Assembly: GCF_030406045.1 (NCBI RefSeq)
Contig: NZ_CP128988.1
Location: forward strand, 1,275,438 to 1,339,437
DNA from: Thiohalobacter sp. IOR34
GTDB lineage: Bacteria; Pseudomonadota; Gammaproteobacteria; Thiohalobacterales; Thiohalobacteraceae
DNA: 64,000 nucleotides
Direction: 5' to 3'
A program made the position numbers and the translations under genes. The notes beneath the pieces are model-generated. The model was given only the letters and a program-made list of their open reading frames with translations, was not told where the DNA came from and did no database searches. This document shows positions 1-6,292 of the stretch, one piece after another. Numbering within the stretch: position 1 is the stretch's first letter; the number at the start of each line of letters is the position of its first letter.

Positions 1-971
1 CGTGCAGCATGTGGATTGTGACAGTCCTGGCATTCCGCGTGTCGATTGCTGACGATGGTGCCTTCTCCTGCATCATGAACGCCGGTATAGGAGTAAATTG
101 GGTGTGCAGAATACTTGCTGAACTGCGACATGATATCTTTACTGGCGACATTGCCGTTATGGCAGGCAGAGCAGTTGTCCTCTTCGGCCTGGTGCTTGAG
201 TAGCAAGGTGCTGCTACCTGCCGAGTGTGGTCGATGGCAGTTCAGGCAGGCATTGTCACTGACTGTTTGCCAATCGGTGTCGGACCAGGGGTCCGGGGGG
301 ATGCCATTCCAGTCCGCATTCGAAAGGCTGTGTGACGCCTGCAGCCAGCCGTGCTTGATATGACAGGTGGTACAAAGTCTGGATGCGCGGTTGGGCATGA
401 CCAGGAACTTGCCAAAGCTGTCATTGTGCGGATCATGACAGCTCGTGCACTGCAATTGTCCGCTTTTGTCGAGGCGCACCGTACCTGTCAGTTGGCCGGG
501 GTCGACGAGCTCGCCTTGCTGTGCTGCGAGTGACGCGGAGTAGACGAATGAAACAGGGTGGTCGTCAGAGAGATCCGTGCCAAGTCTGGTTGCGCCAGGC
601 GGCATGGTGGTCACCCCTCCCGACATGCTGATCTCATTGCTCTGGCTGATTATCTTGCCGAGGGCAATGGTTCCGTCATGGCAACTCAGGCAAAGAATCG
701 AGGCGCCAGTCGGCTGGCCCGGTTGGGCGACAGCAGTCGAACTGGAGTAGGGTATGTACAATGCCGCCGATTGTTCACGGTTCCAGAGTGGAGCTGCAGA
801 GGAGGCATTGTGCGGGGTATGACAGAAGATGCAGATTCTGGATTCCTGGTCCGATTTGATGGTCCCGGGTCCAGAAACTGAAAGGTTATGTTTGGTACTG
901 GCGATGCCTGCAACTGCCGGCATGACCGCAAGCATCTGAAAGAGCAGGGAGAACAGCCAGCGCACCCTCAT
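1..971 (-). CDS. Multihaem c-type cytochrome, at least 7 CxxCH motifs (partial, runs off left edge)
   Basis: Reading the minus strand from the ATG at 971 gives 323 codons with no stop before the window edge. Residues 1-22 look like a Sec signal peptide, so the protein should be exported. Haem-binding CxxCH motifs are visible at about residues 47, 94, 175, 200, 242, 267 and 314. Several are of the paired type, such as CHTPHN and CHDPHN. The first four motifs and their spacers (APLWN, CLSCHDG, DHPVSF) match the tetrahaem cytochrome at 5588-6292, so the two are paralogues and this one is extended. Its ATG overlaps the stop of the upstream NHL gene in an ATGA junction, so translation is probably coupled. 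Role inferred: periplasmic or surface electron carrier. The C terminus is unseen. Confidence 0.85.
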   Translation of the reverse strand, partial: MRVRWLFSLLFQMLAVMPAVAGIASTKHNLSVSGPGTIKSDQESRICIFCHTPHNASSAAPLWNREQSAALYIPYSSSTAVAQPGQPTGASILCLSCHDGTIALGKIISQSNEISMSGGVTTMPPGATRLGTDLSDDHPVSFVYSASLAAQQGELVDPGQLTGTVRLDKSGQLQCTSCHDPHNDSFGKFLVMPNRASRLCTTCHIKHGWLQASHSLSNADWNGIPPDPWSDTDWQTVSDNACLNCHRPHSAGSSTLLLKHQAEEDNCSACHNGNVASKDIMSQFSKYSAHPIYSYTGVHDAGEGTIVSNRHAECQDCHNPHAA

Positions 972-2014
972 GACTGCCCCCCCGAATAACGGAACATCTG
1001 TACGCGCTGATTATGTGAGTCAGTGATGTAGATGGTGTCGTCCGAGCTGATAAATATCCCGGTAGGCAGCCAGAATTGCCCAGGAGCTTGTCCCTGATCG
1101 CCGATGAACAGGAGAAGAGCACCCTGCTCATCGAAGATCTGGAATGCATGAAACATGGCATCGACGACATAGATATGGCCAGCGCTATCGGTTGCCAGGC
1201 CCTTGGGTCGTGAAAACGCGCCCGCCACGTCACCTGCCCTGCCAAAACTGCCGAGATAGCTTCCCTGCAGGTCGAATGTCTGGATCCGGTAATTCAGTGA
1301 ATCCGTCACCCGGACCAGGCCATGCGCATCGATCGAGATGTGTGTCGGGTAATTGAATTCCGAAGCACCGGTGCCGCGCCTGCCGAAGCTTCCAAGATAG
1401 CGGCCATTGGTGGAAAAGATCCTCACGCAATGCGAGGCTGCATCCACGATATATAGGTTGTCTGACAGAGGGTCGATTGCAACCCCGGTTGGTTGTTCCA
1501 GCTCAGACTCGAGTTGCATCCTCTTCAGGACCTTTTCCCCTTTGGCAAGAGAAAACACTGCACCTAGGGCAGAGTCCGTCACATAGACGGTGCCATCTTC
1601 TGCGATCGCGATGCCTACGGGTGATGGAAGTGGCTGCCGCTTTTTACGCTGGAGAAATGTATACTGACCTGTGGCAAGGTCAAAACGATGTATGCCGCGT
1701 GCACCGGGATCGGTAACAAGAAGCAGATTGCCGTGATCAGCGCTGGCAACCGCCATGGGGCGAATCAGCCTGTTCTCGGACACACCTCCCAGCCAGTCGC
1801 CAAGATGTTGCCAGAAAGACTTTTTGATACCGAGATCTGCAGGTGTTCTGAAGCTGCCAAGATAACTGATGTAGGCCGGTGCCGGAGCTGGTGGCCAGGC
1901 GATTTCCTGCTCCGAGCCGATGGTCGTTGTCTGGATGCTGCAGGCGGCAATAAACAGCGCTGCTGCTGCAGCTACCAGGCGGAGAAGAAACGGTTTCTGG
2001 ATGGCGACAGGCAT
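968..2014 (-). CDS. NHL-repeat (six-bladed beta-propeller) lipoprotein
   Basis: The 348-residue product starts with a lipoprotein-type signal (hydrophobic stretch ending IAAC near residue 23), which suggests membrane anchoring on the periplasmic or outer face. The rest consists of NHL-type blades, with repeated patterns such as GIAIAEDGTVYVTDS, GVAIDPLSDNLYIVDA and GLATDSAGHIYVVDA. I chose the ATG at 2014 because it gives the signal peptide directly and overlaps the stop of the beta-barrel gene by one base (TGATG). Its own stop overlaps the start of the multihaem cytochrome. NHL propellers usually act as protein- or ligand-binding scaffolds. Beside a barrel and cytochromes it may help assemble or cap an electron-transfer complex; that is inference. 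It is a paralogue of the protein at 4381-5517. Confidence 0.85.
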   Translation of the reverse strand: MPVAIQKPFLLRLVAAAAALFIAACSIQTTTIGSEQEIAWPPAPAPAYISYLGSFRTPADLGIKKSFWQHLGDWLGGVSENRLIRPMAVASADHGNLLLVTDPGARGIHRFDLATGQYTFLQRKKRQPLPSPVGIAIAEDGTVYVTDSALGAVFSLAKGEKVLKRMQLESELEQPTGVAIDPLSDNLYIVDAASHCVRIFSTNGRYLGSFGRRGTGASEFNYPTHISIDAHGLVRVTDSLNYRIQTFDLQGSYLGSFGRAGDVAGAFSRPKGLATDSAGHIYVVDAMFHAFQIFDEQGALLLFIGDQGQAPGQFWLPTGIFISSDDTIYITDSHNQRVQMFRYSGGQS

Positions 2015-3912
2015 CAGAAGTTCCGCCTCAGATAGGCCATGATCTTGGCCTGCTTCTGTTCGACCGCACCTTGCTGGCTGAGGATGCTCTCGGCACGGAG
2101 CTGGAAAGCCAGTCTGCGGAAGTGCCATGACAAGCCGAGATAGGCGCCACGCCGTTTTCGTATCAGACTACCGCCCGTATCTTTCTGAAAATCGGCGTCC
2201 GCAGTAAGCAAGGTCCGAAACCAGGGGCGTGATGTCAGGCGCAGCATCAGCTGTGTGAGATCAGTATCTTCCTCTGTGTTACTGACATCTATAGTTTCGC
2301 GGCGAGCCGTGATGCGCAGCCGGGTGACGAGCGGCAGGCTGAGCTCGACATACCCTATCAGGCTGTTCCGTGTGTAGGGGGAAATATCCTCCTGGTGGTC
2401 CTCGAATTCTGCATTGGCGCCCGCGAGCCAGCCGCCCTGAAAAGGGTATTCAACCCGGGCCCCGACCAGCATGCTTCGTGTCGAATTGACGGGGATGCTG
2501 CTCACACCAGCAGAGAGATTCTGATTCAGATCTCGATAACGGACATAGAATTCATAGAATCTGGAGATCCTCAATTGAACCGAATAGTTCTGGGCAAGGG
2601 TATTCAGATTGAAACTGCCACCCGTCTGGTAGTCGTAGTCGACCAGTACGGTTTCGCCGTCAATGATGTTGCCACCGATCAGTCGTTCGATCTCGGTTCG
2701 CGAGCCTACGGTTCGGATCCTGTAATCGAGATCCTTGATGAAGGTCTGGGTCTTGGCCTGATTTCTGACGATGATCGTGTTTTCTTCCACGAACTCATGT
2801 TGCAAGGCAACAGGCGCCGTACCGGAGAGGGTCAGTGGCTCGTCGAAGACCTGGATTTGACTGGTTTTGCTGCGCTGCCCGGATCTGTCATAGAGGATGC
2901 TTGCGCCGAGCCTCAGGTCAGCTCTGCCAAGCCTCAAGTCGTAGCCGATATTTCCCCGCGAACCACGTAGCGTGCGATTGAATCCCGTTGTGTCCTGTTG
3001 TTCCTTCTCACCATGGATGTCCAGATTGCCACGCAGCCCATCGACAGACATGTAGTTGACGCCGGCAACGAGAAACTGATTTCTGGTATCGATGTCCGAC
3101 CGTTGGTTGTTCGTCAGTCGGTACTGATAAAAACTGCCTACCTCCCTGCTGTGTTGCCAGCGCATATCAAAGTTGTAACGCAGGTCGTCGATATCCGTCG
3201 CAGGGTCGTTCTGCAGCCTGGATGTCTGCTGGCTGAGGGTGAGTAGCTGGGTGACGTTGATCTTGTCGTTTTCGCCAAATGCATTGCGGGCGCTGATATC
3301 GATGGTGCGGCTTCGGGTATTGTTTTTCTGTATGGGGAGACCAAGACTGCCGCTCTTGGAATCGACTTCGATATCGAGATAGGAAACCTGGATATGATCG
3401 TTCCCATTATAAGATTTGAATGCGCGAAGGGTGAGCTGATCCGTTATGTCATTGATGCTGGTGTCGATGCCTTGGCCGCGGTTTTCATAATGTAGTGTGC
3501 CCAGATAGAGCAGCACTGGAGAAATGCTTTCGAGCAGGCTCGCCTGAAATCCATAGCGGATGTTCTCGACCAGAAACCTGCCAGATAGGCTGGTGGAAAC
3601 GGATGGGTTGCTACGGTTGTAGAACAGACTGAATGGATAGGGTTTCCGTTTCAGGAAACTCAGGCGCGCATTCAGATTATAAAGCGATTCATTGCTGTTG
3701 TTGGAGCCCTGGTTCGTCGAAAAATCCTGCTGCACGAACAGCAGGCCACCACCCAGATCCATGTCGAGCAGATTCGGGTGATAGACATAGCTGTGCGTCA
3801 ATACATTGATTTCTTCCTCGAACGTAGGCCTCGTCTGGTAACTCGTGTTTCCAAGCGCATCGGTTTGCCGGTATTCATCGTATATAGCGTAATTCCGCCT
3901 TGCCTTCGACAT
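2014..3912 (-). CDS. Outer-membrane beta-barrel protein (porin-like), 5' end probably frameshifted
   Basis: The 632 residues have alternating polar/apolar strands, many Tyr, Arg and Asn, and an aromatic C-terminal residue (LRRNF), all typical of a large outer-membrane barrel. I could not assign a named family. As read, the protein starts at the ATG at 3912 without a signal peptide. An overlapping frame (3875-4078) encodes a clear signal peptide and then runs into the same region, which suggests a small indel near 3880-3887. Downstream it is joined by a one-base overlap to the NHL lipoprotein and then the multihaem cytochrome. That order recalls porin-cytochrome conduits (MtrAB- or Omb/Oma-like), but homology to those porins is not shown. 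The alternative is an unrelated surface barrel. Confidence 0.75.
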   Translation of the reverse strand: MSKARRNYAIYDEYRQTDALGNTSYQTRPTFEEEINVLTHSYVYHPNLLDMDLGGGLLFVQQDFSTNQGSNNSNESLYNLNARLSFLKRKPYPFSLFYNRSNPSVSTSLSGRFLVENIRYGFQASLLESISPVLLYLGTLHYENRGQGIDTSINDITDQLTLRAFKSYNGNDHIQVSYLDIEVDSKSGSLGLPIQKNNTRSRTIDISARNAFGENDKINVTQLLTLSQQTSRLQNDPATDIDDLRYNFDMRWQHSREVGSFYQYRLTNNQRSDIDTRNQFLVAGVNYMSVDGLRGNLDIHGEKEQQDTTGFNRTLRGSRGNIGYDLRLGRADLRLGASILYDRSGQRSKTSQIQVFDEPLTLSGTAPVALQHEFVEENTIIVRNQAKTQTFIKDLDYRIRTVGSRTEIERLIGGNIIDGETVLVDYDYQTGGSFNLNTLAQNYSVQLRISRFYEFYVRYRDLNQNLSAGVSSIPVNSTRSMLVGARVEYPFQGGWLAGANAEFEDHQEDISPYTRNSLIGYVELSLPLVTRLRITARRETIDVSNTEEDTDLTQLMLRLTSRPWFRTLLTADADFQKDTGGSLIRKRRGAYLGLSWHFRRLAFQLRAESILSQQGAVEQKQAKIMAYLRRNF

Positions 3913-4078
3913 CGGTCAGCTGATATGCACGGATGTCGCTGGTACGAGCATGGCTTGCTTGATTGCTCAACATGATACACAGGCCACATAGGCAAGCTAA
4001 GACTAAGGAAACACCGTCTCTACAGCAGATTCTGGCGCAACGGGTCAGGCTGCCTGCACGCCCAAATTCTCTTCCCAT
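3875..4078 (-). pseudogene. Signal-peptide-encoding fragment of the beta-barrel gene in another frame
   Basis: This short frame encodes a basic N terminus, a hydrophobic core (VSLVLACLCGLCIML) and a likely cleavage site SHA. It is followed by RTSDIRAYQLTDVEGKAELRY and then stops. The last part overlaps the start of the barrel frame, where the same bases read NYAIYDEYRQ. Adding one TA unit, or deleting one base, in the TATATA run at about 3880-3887 would join ELRY to the barrel sequence YDEYRQ. The simplest reading is one gene of about 690 codons broken by an indel. It could be a sequencing error, a recent mutation or repeat-slippage phase variation. An alternative start at 4126 is also open. 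Confidence 0.6.
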
Positions 4079-4126
4079 CTGTCCCGGGAAAAGGTCTTGG
4101 CATGCAGCAGAGGTAGCCAGAAACAT

Positions 4127-4380
4127 CGTTACTCATTTCAGTAATAGGTTGAATCAATCCAGGTTCTGTCAACACGATCCCAATGCGTTCTGCTGGGGCC
4201 CACTTTTCGCCCGGCAAGACAGAATGAGCGAATGGTAATGCCACTGAGCGGGGAAACAGTCCCAGCCCTGCGCTTTGCTCGTCGTTCACTTGGCTTCACC
4301 AGACTGCACTCCTCGCGCTTCGGTTGGCACTTCCTCAGGCACAGCACAGCCTATTGGTAGCCTGTCAACAGGCCCTGGTC
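4127..4380. other. Intergenic spacer upstream of the barrel operon
   Basis: This is the gap between the second NHL gene and the beta-barrel operon. I see no convincing ORF, RNA or strong terminator hairpin. It should hold the promoter of the barrel-NHL-cytochrome operon if that is transcribed separately from the genes upstream. Confidence 0.3.
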
Positions 4381-5517
4381 TCAATCCCGTTTTGGTGGCG
4401 CCGAGCTGTAGTCCATGCCTGACATCTTGCCAAAACCGAACGCAGTAACCTTGTTTATTCCGAACTGGCTGGAGACCAGTATCACATACTCAAGATTGAA
4501 ATCTGGTGCGGCATATCTGCGGAAATATTCGACATTGTCATAGTCGATGTAAATATCCGCCGGGAGGTTGATATTGCCGGTTTTGTCGCCTGCTTCACCA
4601 AAGAAGAGAAGCGGGGTTCCATCCTTGTCGAAGATCTGCACGTTCTCGAATGCAGCATCTACGACATAAAGTCGTTCGCGGCGGTCAACGGCGATACCTT
4701 TCGGTCTGGCAAAGTGTCCGACGGCATCACCTATGCCGCCATAGGTGCGGATATATTTACCCTCCAGAGTGAACTTCTGTACTCTGAAATTTCCGCTATC
4801 GCTCACATAGATGGAACGGCCATCAGGGCTCAAAGCAAGATTGGTCGGTTGAAACAGCTGCCCTTCCTTGGATCCAGCACTGCCAAAGGAGAACAGCTCA
4901 TCGCCTGTCGATCTGTCGAGAACATGCACCCTGTGATGGTAGAGGTCGGTGACATACAGGCGATCACCGGCGATCAAACAGTCGATCGGCTTGAATTCCT
5001 CGGGTGTCCCGAATGCCTTGACGTATTTGTCATCACGGCTGTAGACCAGAATCTGGTTGCGTCCCGTGTCCGTGATGTATTTGGTGCCGTCTGCAGCGAT
5101 ACTGATGTTGATCGGCTTCTTCATGCTGCCGTTGCCAAAGCCTTGGATGAAATCTGTGCGGCGATTTTTCAGATCATAGATGCCATAGCCATTGCCGCGA
5201 ATATCGACCACATAGATCTTGCCATCGTACAGCGCAACGCCGTAGGGCTTGCGCACCAGATGGCCCTGCATGGACTCCTTCCCGAACAGGAAATCCTTGA
5301 GTCCGCTGGCATCGGCAACAAGGTCGCCCTGGGTCGAAAAACGTGCCAGATACTGAATGCGAGGCGGGTTGGGCAGGGGCGGAAAGAATAGCTTTGCCTC
5401 CTCCGGGGTTCTGGTTGGAGTGGCGCAGCCTGCTGTAAGGAGAAGCAGAAGCAAGGCGATCATCGGCCAGCCGGGAATTGAGGCGCCTGTCAGCTTGTTT
5501 TGTTTCGACTGCTTCAT
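4381..5517 (-). CDS. NHL-repeat lipoprotein, paralogue of 968-2014
   Basis: The 378-residue product has a classic lipoprotein signal (long Leu run ending LTAGC near residue 31), then a conserved entry segment (PPLPNPPRIQYLARF). A set of NHL blades follows, for example GVALYDGKIYVVDIRGN, NISIAADGTKYITDTGRN and GIAVDRRERLYVVDAAFEN. The C-terminal blade continues to about residue 360 and includes FGINKVTAFGFGK. It lies 70 bp downstream of the tetrahaem cytochrome in the same direction, so the pair forms a cytochrome-NHL unit. The same unit is repeated further downstream. A GC-rich stem-loop lies in the gap between them. Enzymatic function is unlikely; a scaffold or partner-binding role for the cytochrome is inferred. 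Confidence 0.85.
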   Translation of the reverse strand: MKQSKQNKLTGASIPGWPMIALLLLLLTAGCATPTRTPEEAKLFFPPLPNPPRIQYLARFSTQGDLVADASGLKDFLFGKESMQGHLVRKPYGVALYDGKIYVVDIRGNGYGIYDLKNRRTDFIQGFGNGSMKKPINISIAADGTKYITDTGRNQILVYSRDDKYVKAFGTPEEFKPIDCLIAGDRLYVTDLYHHRVHVLDRSTGDELFSFGSAGSKEGQLFQPTNLALSPDGRSIYVSDSGNFRVQKFTLEGKYIRTYGGIGDAVGHFARPKGIAVDRRERLYVVDAAFENVQIFDKDGTPLLFFGEAGDKTGNINLPADIYIDYDNVEYFRRYAAPDFNLEYVILVSSQFGINKVTAFGFGKMSGMDYSSAPPKRD

Positions 5518-5551
5518 GACCCTGAGTGACTGTCATCCAAGGTTGGTATCG

Positions 5552-5579
5552 GCCCCCACCGGCAGAAGCCGGCGGGGGC
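5552..5579 (-). terminator. GC-rich stem-loop between cytochrome and NHL genes
   Basis: The bases GCCCCCACCGGC and GCCGGCGGGGGC form a near-perfect 12-bp stem around a 4-base loop. No T-run follows on the minus strand. It is therefore more likely an attenuator or mRNA-stabilising hairpin setting the cytochrome/NHL ratio than a full terminator. Confidence 0.4.
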
Positions 5580-5587
5580 ATGGCGGC

Positions 5588-6292
5588 TTACTTGTTGTGG
5601 CAGGTCAGGCAGATCTTGCTTTTCGCCTTGCTGACCTTCAAGAACGGCTCGCCGTCGGTGCCGGGTGCCACAAAATTGTTATGCACGTCGTGGCAGGAAG
5701 AACATTGCACCTTGTTCGAAGGAAGCATGAGGTCGGCCACGGTGCCGCTTCTCGTCTTGTCTCCATTCTCGCCGATGATCACGCTCTTGGCCGTCGGGTC
5801 GTGCAGGCCGGGGTCCGTGGTGGCGAGCGCCGCATCGTAGGTTATGGAGATCGGGTGGTCATTGGTCAGATCCCCGTTCTTGCCGACGGCAGCAGTCGCG
5901 CTGCTCATCACGAAGGTGCCAGTATTGCCGCCAAAGCTGTCGATGGCGGTGGCACCGTCATGGCAGGAGAGACACAGTTTCGAGGTGCCGGTAGGTTGGG
6001 CATCCTGGGCCGCATCGAGCGTGGGGCTGCTGTACATGGTGAAGTTGGTCTGGGTGACCGTGTGATTCCAGAGCGGCGCTGTCGTCACGGATGTGTCTGA
6101 GTTGTGGGGGGTGTGGCAGACGACGCAGATCTGGCCGAGTGAGAAGCCGCTTGCCGAGAAATCATGATCGGTGCCAACGATGGTTCCGCTGAGCGCCGGT
6201 CCTGCTGCCACTCCCAATGTGATCGCCAGGGCACTGGCGATTGATACGGATGCCCTTCTTGCGGACCTGGTATTGCAGGTTATATTTTTCAT
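5588..6292 (-). CDS. Tetrahaem c-type cytochrome, paired CxxCH type
   Basis: The 234-residue product has an N-terminal Sec signal peptide (cleavage near ALSG, residue 36) and four CxxCH haem motifs: CVVCHTPHN, CLSCHDG, CSSCHDVHN and a C-terminal CLTCHNK. The DHPISITYDAALA segment between motifs two and three matches the longer cytochrome at 1-971, so the two share an ancestor. A strong Shine-Dalgarno (GGAGGA) lies just upstream of the ATG at 6292. It is the first gene of the minus-strand redox cluster. Role inferred: periplasmic electron carrier feeding or draining the barrel/NHL/multihaem assembly. The electron donor and acceptor cannot be read from sequence. Confidence 0.9.
   Translation of the reverse strand: MKNITCNTRSARRASVSIASALAITLGVAAGPALSGTIVGTDHDFSASGFSLGQICVVCHTPHNSDTSVTTAPLWNHTVTQTNFTMYSSPTLDAAQDAQPTGTSKLCLSCHDGATAIDSFGGNTGTFVMSSATAAVGKNGDLTNDHPISITYDAALATTDPGLHDPTAKSVIIGENGDKTRSGTVADLMLPSNKVQCSSCHDVHNNFVAPGTDGEPFLKVSKAKSKICLTCHNK

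Follow-up and report, generated by a model that had tools for sequence, protein, structure and literature searches.

The Uet system of Ca. Tenderia electrophaga, Tenderiales and some Gallionella comprises a tetrahaem cytochrome (UetA), a peptidyl-prolyl isomerase (UetB), a barrel (UetC), trihaem proteins (UetDEG), UetF, NHL proteins (UetHI) and an undecahaem cytochrome (UetJ) (PMC10734462). PCC3 systems have periplasmic and extracellular cytochromes with about 20-35 haems and a conserved inner-membrane protein (PMC5566968). Even in Geobacter it is poorly understood how extracellular cytochrome filaments exchange electrons with the inside of the cell (PMC10553843). We have analyzed the left end of a 64,000-nucleotide stretch (the window; G000:C1:1275438-1339437) of the complete 2.96 Mb genome of Thiohalobacter sp. 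IOR34. It holds part of a 16-kb cluster of 12 minus-strand genes for electron transfer across the cell envelope. Five of these genes lie in the window and, read along that strand, encode a tetrahaem cytochrome (cytochrome A), a first NHL protein (NHL1), an outer-membrane β-barrel, a second NHL protein (NHL2) and a larger multihaem cytochrome (cytochrome J). Comparing by description, the set is most akin to Uet. We propose, with a probability of about 0.6, that the cluster would provide a complete electron path between the quinone pool and the exterior, arranged around an OmcE-type filament with cytochrome J as the adaptor.

The gene order was taken from the list of open reading frames. A five-gene series on the minus strand had been described in an earlier note on this DNA, and all five frames are present in that order. 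The note counted four haem motifs in one cytochrome and at least seven in the other. Four CXXCH motifs are found in cytochrome A, and seven motifs of cytochrome J fall within the window. The last three genes are coupled by overlaps, as the note had read them (1-4 bp): the start of NHL2 overlaps the barrel stop by 1 nt (TGATG), and the start of cytochrome J overlaps the NHL2 stop by 4 nt (ATGA). NHL1 and the barrel are separated by ~300 bp, and this gap holds a dispersed genomic repeat. The repeat is ~260 bp long with at least 12 copies in the genome (L002-L008); each of its ends is in part an inverted copy of the other, and it has no match in Rfam. No regulatory RNA was found by Rfam in or near the five genes, the sole match being a tRNA. 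The run of genes extends ~10 kb past the left edge of the window, and the proteins of the whole cluster have 62 c-type haem motifs in sum.

Judged by its sequence, cytochrome A is an OmcE-family cytochrome, and thus a relative of the conductive filament protein of Geobacter. A phmmer search of all chains in the PDB returned two relatives. The first, 9YUQ, matches over the full length (E=1.3e-22), and its chain is present 16 times in that one entry. The second is OmcE itself (7TFS, titled 'Cryo-EM of the OmcE nanowires from Geobacter sulfurreducens'), matching residues 14-234 of 234 with E=1.4e-21; the two proteins are 36% identical over 198 aligned positions. We deduced the eight ligand histidines of OmcE as the four of the CXXCH motifs and four others that are invariant. 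These (His 31, 55, 58, 107, 149, 205, 208 and 230 of OmcE) are kept in 98-100% of 51 cytochrome A proteins from many phyla. In the published structure of OmcE the haems are reportedly ligated by histidines of adjacent subunits, and a companion cluster of OmcS for nanowire assembly is said to occur in G. sulfurreducens. Cytochrome A may likewise polymerize into a filament. There is one copy of its gene in the genome, and the sole other match is cytochrome J.

Cytochrome J is cut by the edge of the window. Completing it from the genome, a check that the earlier note had proposed, gives a protein of 571 amino acids with 11 CXXCH motifs and one conserved CXXXCH. The terminal CXXXCH is present in 80 of 81 J frames, so that cytochrome J is probably dodecahaem rather than undecahaem. 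In the N-terminal 206 residues it matches 7TFS (E=1.6e-30), and this part aligns to cytochrome A with 100% probability over 180 columns. Moreover, the eight OmcE ligand histidines are kept in 99-100% of 74 J N-domains. From these alignments cytochrome J appears to be one OmcE unit extended by eight haems. Open frames that resemble NHL2-J fusions occur at five loci (long J frames in L028, L057, L072, L073 and L107), and were rejected. The NHL model has no match there, and a hydrophobic stretch like a signal peptide precedes the J haems, pointing to a mere upstream open frame. At one locus of a Woeseiaceae genome (L109:9304-13771) the NHL2-J pair is tandemly duplicated.

The structure of J was modeled with AlphaFold2 on a close homologue that is 65% identical to the protein of the window genome. 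The model has a moderate predicted local distance difference test score (pLDDT) of 76. Its only significant match in the PDB is 7TFS (E=1.3e-6; Z 8.4, 3.9 Å over 170 residues), in a search that leaves room for other families in the C-terminal part. In a second structural alignment that part gave Z ~3, at the noise level, to octahaem nitrite reductases and hydroxylamine oxidoreductase (HAO). This weak likeness would suit a cluster that served as a periplasmic terminal reductase or oxidase of a soluble substrate, and not in extracellular exchange. Besides the noise-level Z values, the outer-membrane barrel, the two coupled lipoproteins and the OmcE homology all fit a role at the outer surface, and we consider a periplasmic enzyme very improbable.

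We examined the conservation of the set in two ways. A search with a barrel profile of 369 sampled gammaproteobacterial genomes gave matches in 11, that of the window included, two of the matches being short and weak. The barrel is convincing in eight genomes other than that of the window, and in seven of these J lies next to it. The full gamma-type order, as far as the contigs reach, is seen in G104, G077, G309, L035, L041, L042 and L094, and in G055 the two halves of the cluster lie on opposite strands. A search of genome contigs for J found 559 stretches encoding a relative, and the results across phyla refer to the best 80 of these. They come from Gammaproteobacteria, Nitrospirota, Nitrospinota, Planctomycetes, Verrucomicrobia, Bacteroidota, Ignavibacteria, KSB1, Calditrichota, Zixibacteria, Hydrogenedentes, Acidobacteria and Desulfobacterota. 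The J loci that could be assessed, 57 in number, are those with no less than 6 kb of upstream sequence; having been chosen by J similarity, they give counts that measure linkage, not prevalence. Cytochrome A is found at 54 of them, NHL1 at 54, the barrel at 53, NHL2 at 54 and all four partners at 47. Across more than 10 phyla, then, the barrel, both NHL proteins, the OmcE-like protein and J are found together. The arrangement of the five genes is not due to chance, because their order is met again in different families and phyla. Homologous barrel-NHL-cytochrome sets, which the earlier note had suggested looking for, do exist, and its worry that the cluster might lack co-occurrence in other genomes falls away.

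The partners are not identical in all lineages. A 5-haem cytochrome joins the set in 31 of the 49 non-gamma J loci and in none of the eight gamma loci. It has ~200 amino acids and lies between NHL1 and the barrel in most non-gamma loci (L040, L044, L049, L066, L075, L108 and others), where it is a candidate for a protein in or under the barrel. A 15-haem cytochrome of ~450 amino acids recurs beside the outer-membrane module in Planctomycetes, Bacteroidota and others (L047, L050, L061, L066, L071, L087, L099, L104 and others). In what is apparently one genome (G293/bin408; L029 and L059) the barrel and NHL2 are in one place, and J, the 8-haem and the NapC-like cytochromes in another.

The barrel was modeled with AlphaFold2 using 39 homologues, and the model has a pLDDT of 91, with 30 strands that are eight or more residues long. 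The strand count, which the earlier note had wished to see predicted, is thus ~30; that of MtrB, which we take to be 26 from its structure, is lower. Among the Foldseek matches listed, the highest TM-score, 0.46, is that to MtrB (6R2Q chain B). In a second alignment 451 residues of MtrB superimpose at 6.7 Å with Z 14.2, a value tied with many large barrels. The model therefore predicts a very large barrel, nearest in shape to MtrB. By sequence the barrel body has no match in Pfam and a sub-threshold one in NCBIfam, and no relatives were found in the PDB up to E 1. Membership of the MtrB/PioB family was considered and rejected, as PF11854 is unmatched by the barrel and absent from the whole genome.

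The resemblance to MtrB brings in a simpler explanation, a plain porin-cytochrome conduit in which the barrel would sheath one cytochrome, A and J would be periplasmic or surface partners, the NHL proteins would be spacers and there would be no filament. A barrel with multihaem cytochromes is just what is found in MtrCAB, and published models of Uet treat that set as a porin-cytochrome complex (PMC10734462). Yet the cytochrome A proteins have the full OmcE ligand set, including an N-terminal histidine that would be expected to act between subunits, and neither an MtrA-family nor an MtrB-family member is present. The best scores in the cluster for the decahaem DmsE/MtrA family (TIGR03508), 48.7 and 90.6 bits, fall short of the cut-off of 192.2. 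We regard the plain conduit as unlikely. The candidate outer-membrane electron conduit of the earlier note stands as an electron-transfer set, but cytochrome A, being of OmcE type, points to a nanowire-linked system in place of a simple porin-cytochrome plug.

By E-value, the ushers PapC and FimD are among the top Foldseek matches of the barrel, with low TM-score. The barrel also has a conserved small inserted domain at about residues 363-419 that could be compared with the plug of an usher, and it stays near a gene of filament type. Perhaps then the barrel is a pore for export or assembly of a haem-loaded subunit, with the NHL proteins as assembly factors and the electrons taking another route. 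The TM-scores to ushers are 0.24-0.32 compared with 0.46 to MtrB, however, there is no chaperone in the cluster, and J and the 5-haem and 8-haem cytochromes are as tightly linked to the barrel as is A. An usher-like role is accordingly improbable, and the earlier note's concern that the barrel might belong to an unrelated exporter family is allayed, no such family being matched. The most conserved stretch of the barrel (residues ~356-448) is the inserted domain, and in several homologues this matches an NCBIfam phage tail-tube model below its cut-off.

The earlier note overlooked a frameshift in the barrel gene. The frame from 3912 is already closed two codons further up and lacks a signal peptide, which is encoded instead in another frame; that frame continues as ...DVEGKAELRYI and ends at a stop at 3875. 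The junction between leader and body is a TATATA run (3886-3881), and a barrel homologue reads ...VEGNVAARYIYDDYRQ in a single frame. In 80 related loci there are 64 barrel frames longer than 580 amino acids, and apart from the present one a single barrel is split at a point clear of a contig end. By comparison with the homologues, a two-base deletion in the TATATA run appears to part the barrel from its signal peptide in this assembly, either as a real loss in the strain or as an assembly error. Programmed frameshifting was considered and discarded; it would need +1 slippage at CGA_TGA, the homologues are in a single frame, and loss of two bases from the TA run is simpler. No plasmid-borne homologues of the barrel were found.

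The guanine plus cytosine (GC) content of the cluster (L009:7584-19001 plus window 1-6292) is mostly 0.51-0.59, compared with 0.66 around it and in the genome, and the barrel is present in none of ten genomes of the same family. Horizontal acquisition is likely on these two grounds. The genes for the 24-haem and the last trihaem cytochromes have GC contents of 0.65-0.66 and look native. This suggests an acquired island joined to resident cytochromes. The same properties, together with the deletion in the barrel and the repeat element inserted in the cluster, would fit a horizontally acquired island that is decaying and has no function in this strain. Set against that, the other eleven genes are open and conserved, and a single indel in a TA run can arise from an assembly error. 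We find decay somewhat doubtful; it would be compatible with the proposed electron path in relatives where the cluster is intact.

The remaining genes of the cluster lie to the left of cytochrome J (Table 1) and include a probable inner-membrane module. The cytochrome b matches PF01292 above its cut-off and TIGR01583 below it (1.7e-13), and has two conserved HX13-14H pairs (H107/H121 and H225/H240). At locus L051 it forms a single polypeptide with the trihaem protein, and in eight open reading frames of Verrucomicrobia and Planctomycetes the same cytochrome b is joined to a multihaem cytochrome, which has 9-11 haems in the complete frames. These fusions support a physical quinone oxidoreductase in the style of CbcL. 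The gene order of the module is conserved among related loci. No relatives of the NapC-like and 8-haem cytochromes were found in the PDB, and the sole match there for the 24-haem protein is to 63 residues of OmcE. In two other genomes, G135 and G055, a second, diverged module of NapC-like, cytochrome b and trihaem genes adjoins the outer-membrane genes (L026:15483-18305; L033:9757-12669). Adjoining the left end of the cluster is a gene for a PEP-CTERM protein (L009:6753-7430) weakly similar to the flocculation protein PepA.

Table 1. Features of the cluster. Simple positions are those of the window; positions with the prefix L009 lie beyond its left edge.
Feature	Position	Strand	Remarks
Cytochrome A	5588..6292	-	234 amino acids, 4 CXXCH, N-terminal signal peptide; OmcE family, putative extracellular filament subunit
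NHL1	4381..5517	-	β-propeller, probable lipoprotein (LTAGC); PF01436 4.2e-19
Repeat copy	4158..4378	none	~260-bp dispersed family, like a miniature inverted-repeat transposable element; between NHL1 and barrel
Barrel leader	3875..4126	-	signal peptide ...QASHARTSDIRAYQLTDVEGKAELRYI; frame stops at 3875
Barrel body	2014..3912	-	outer-membrane β-barrel, 632 amino acids; signal peptide absent from own frame
NHL2	968..2014	-	β-propeller lipoprotein (lipobox IAAC); PF01436 3.3e-26
Cytochrome J, part in window	1..971	-	runs ~745 bases further left, to G000:C1:1274693
8-haem cytochrome	L009:15604-16791	same	left of J; periplasmic in proposed scheme
8-haem NapC-like cytochrome	L009:14438-15559	same	C-terminal membrane helix
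Cytochrome b561/FdnI-like protein	L009:13451-14395	same	PF01292 2.6e-9
Trihaem protein	L009:12244-13296	same	membrane-anchored
Third NHL protein	L009:11268-12299	same	
24-haem cytochrome	L009:8260-11271	same	1003 amino acids
Small trihaem cytochrome	L009:7584-8117	same	last gene of cluster

That the genes encode an outer-membrane electron-transfer set is well supported, because the barrel, multihaem cytochromes and NHL proteins are conserved as a block, a quinone-type module is linked to them, and the barrel comes nearest to MtrB in overall shape. The path that we propose would begin at the inner membrane, where the cytochrome b, the 8-haem NapC-like cytochrome and the anchored trihaem protein would together make up a quinone oxidoreductase of the CbcL kind, split over three proteins. 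Transfer through the periplasm would fall to the periplasmic 8-haem cytochrome and possibly also to the 24-haem one. In the outer membrane the large barrel would act as the gate, the two NHL propeller lipoproteins sitting at its mouth, and cytochrome J would be the terminal adaptor that joins this gate to a stacked-haem filament of cytochrome A subunits. More tentatively, and with the odds a little against it, these proteins could be a machine common to many phyla, in which J plugs an OmcE-type nanowire into a ~30-strand barrel gated by two NHL propellers.

A number of points weigh against the proposed path. The proposal is built from sequences and models, and any haem protein inside the barrel is putative. 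The role of the NHL proteins in the gate is putative. Homology to OmcE is no proof of a filament, since at 36% identity the cytochrome could also be a monomer. The moderate model of J says nothing on docking, by which it would engage its partners. The 5-haem cytochrome that stands beside the barrel in most other phyla is absent from the gamma type. Lastly, the barrel reads as frameshifted here, and barring an assembly error the sequenced strain may have an inactive system.

The genome of the host has two RuBisCO genes, dsrA and two ccoN genes (cbb3 oxidases), a gene content consistent with an autotrophic sulfur oxidizer. As the direction of flow, electron uptake is slightly favored for this reason. 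If the wider reading of a machine common to many phyla is true, that machine would be the missing link that ties extracellular filaments of cytochromes to the interior of the cell. The conserved block itself supplies concrete candidates for anchor, gate and wire. It might also provide a marker set (J with 11 CXXCH and CXXXCH, beside the barrel and NHL genes) for electroactive potential in groups such as Planctomycetes, Verrucomicrobia, Nitrospirota and Bacteroidota.

How does the cluster compare with known systems? Cytochrome A shares with the OmcE nanowire (7TFS) full-length homology, four haems, the eight ligand histidines and a C-terminal CXXCH near the end of the chain. It differs in its limited identity and in that its gene is embedded in a barrel-NHL-J cluster; moreover, its filament is putative. 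The MtrCAB, MtoAB and PioAB systems similarly combine a large outer-membrane barrel with multihaem cytochromes, but the barrel here lies outside the MtrB_PioB family (PF11854) and NHL lipoproteins are added. CbcL also has a multihaem c domain with an FdnI-like cytochrome b, and fused forms adjoin the module in Verrucomicrobia and Planctomycetes. In this cluster the function would be split into three genes; the comparison is one of gene architecture. PCC3 of iron oxidizers (PMC5566968) has a barrel, a cytochrome with a very high number of haems and an inner-membrane b-type cytochrome; comparing by composition, the present cluster differs in having one cytochrome with more than 20 haems (24-haem), an OmcE-like protein and NHL proteins. 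The compositions of OetABI (PMC10553843) and the Ext/Omc conduits (PMC6148476) are different from that of the cluster.

Uet likewise has a tetrahaem cytochrome, a barrel, two NHL proteins and a cytochrome with 11 CXXCH motifs clustered together. The suggestion in the earlier note that the NHL propellers may define a different type of conduit is thus forestalled, as Uet already pairs a barrel with two of them (PMC10734462). No Tenderia sequences occur among the best 80 of the 559 J stretches. Family searches with the 12 cluster proteins revealed no peptidyl-prolyl isomerase, and the cluster has no UetF-like gene. There is no trihaem triplet beside the barrel, the trihaem proteins being encoded only in the far half of the cluster. 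What the cluster has in addition is a co-directional quinone-type cytochrome b module, 8-haem and 24-haem cytochromes and a third NHL protein, and J has its conserved twelfth motif, CXXXCH; these comparisons with Uet are of gene content. The new points are limited to the OmcE identity of cytochrome A, the construction of cytochrome J as an OmcE unit plus a tail, and the breadth of the conserved block.

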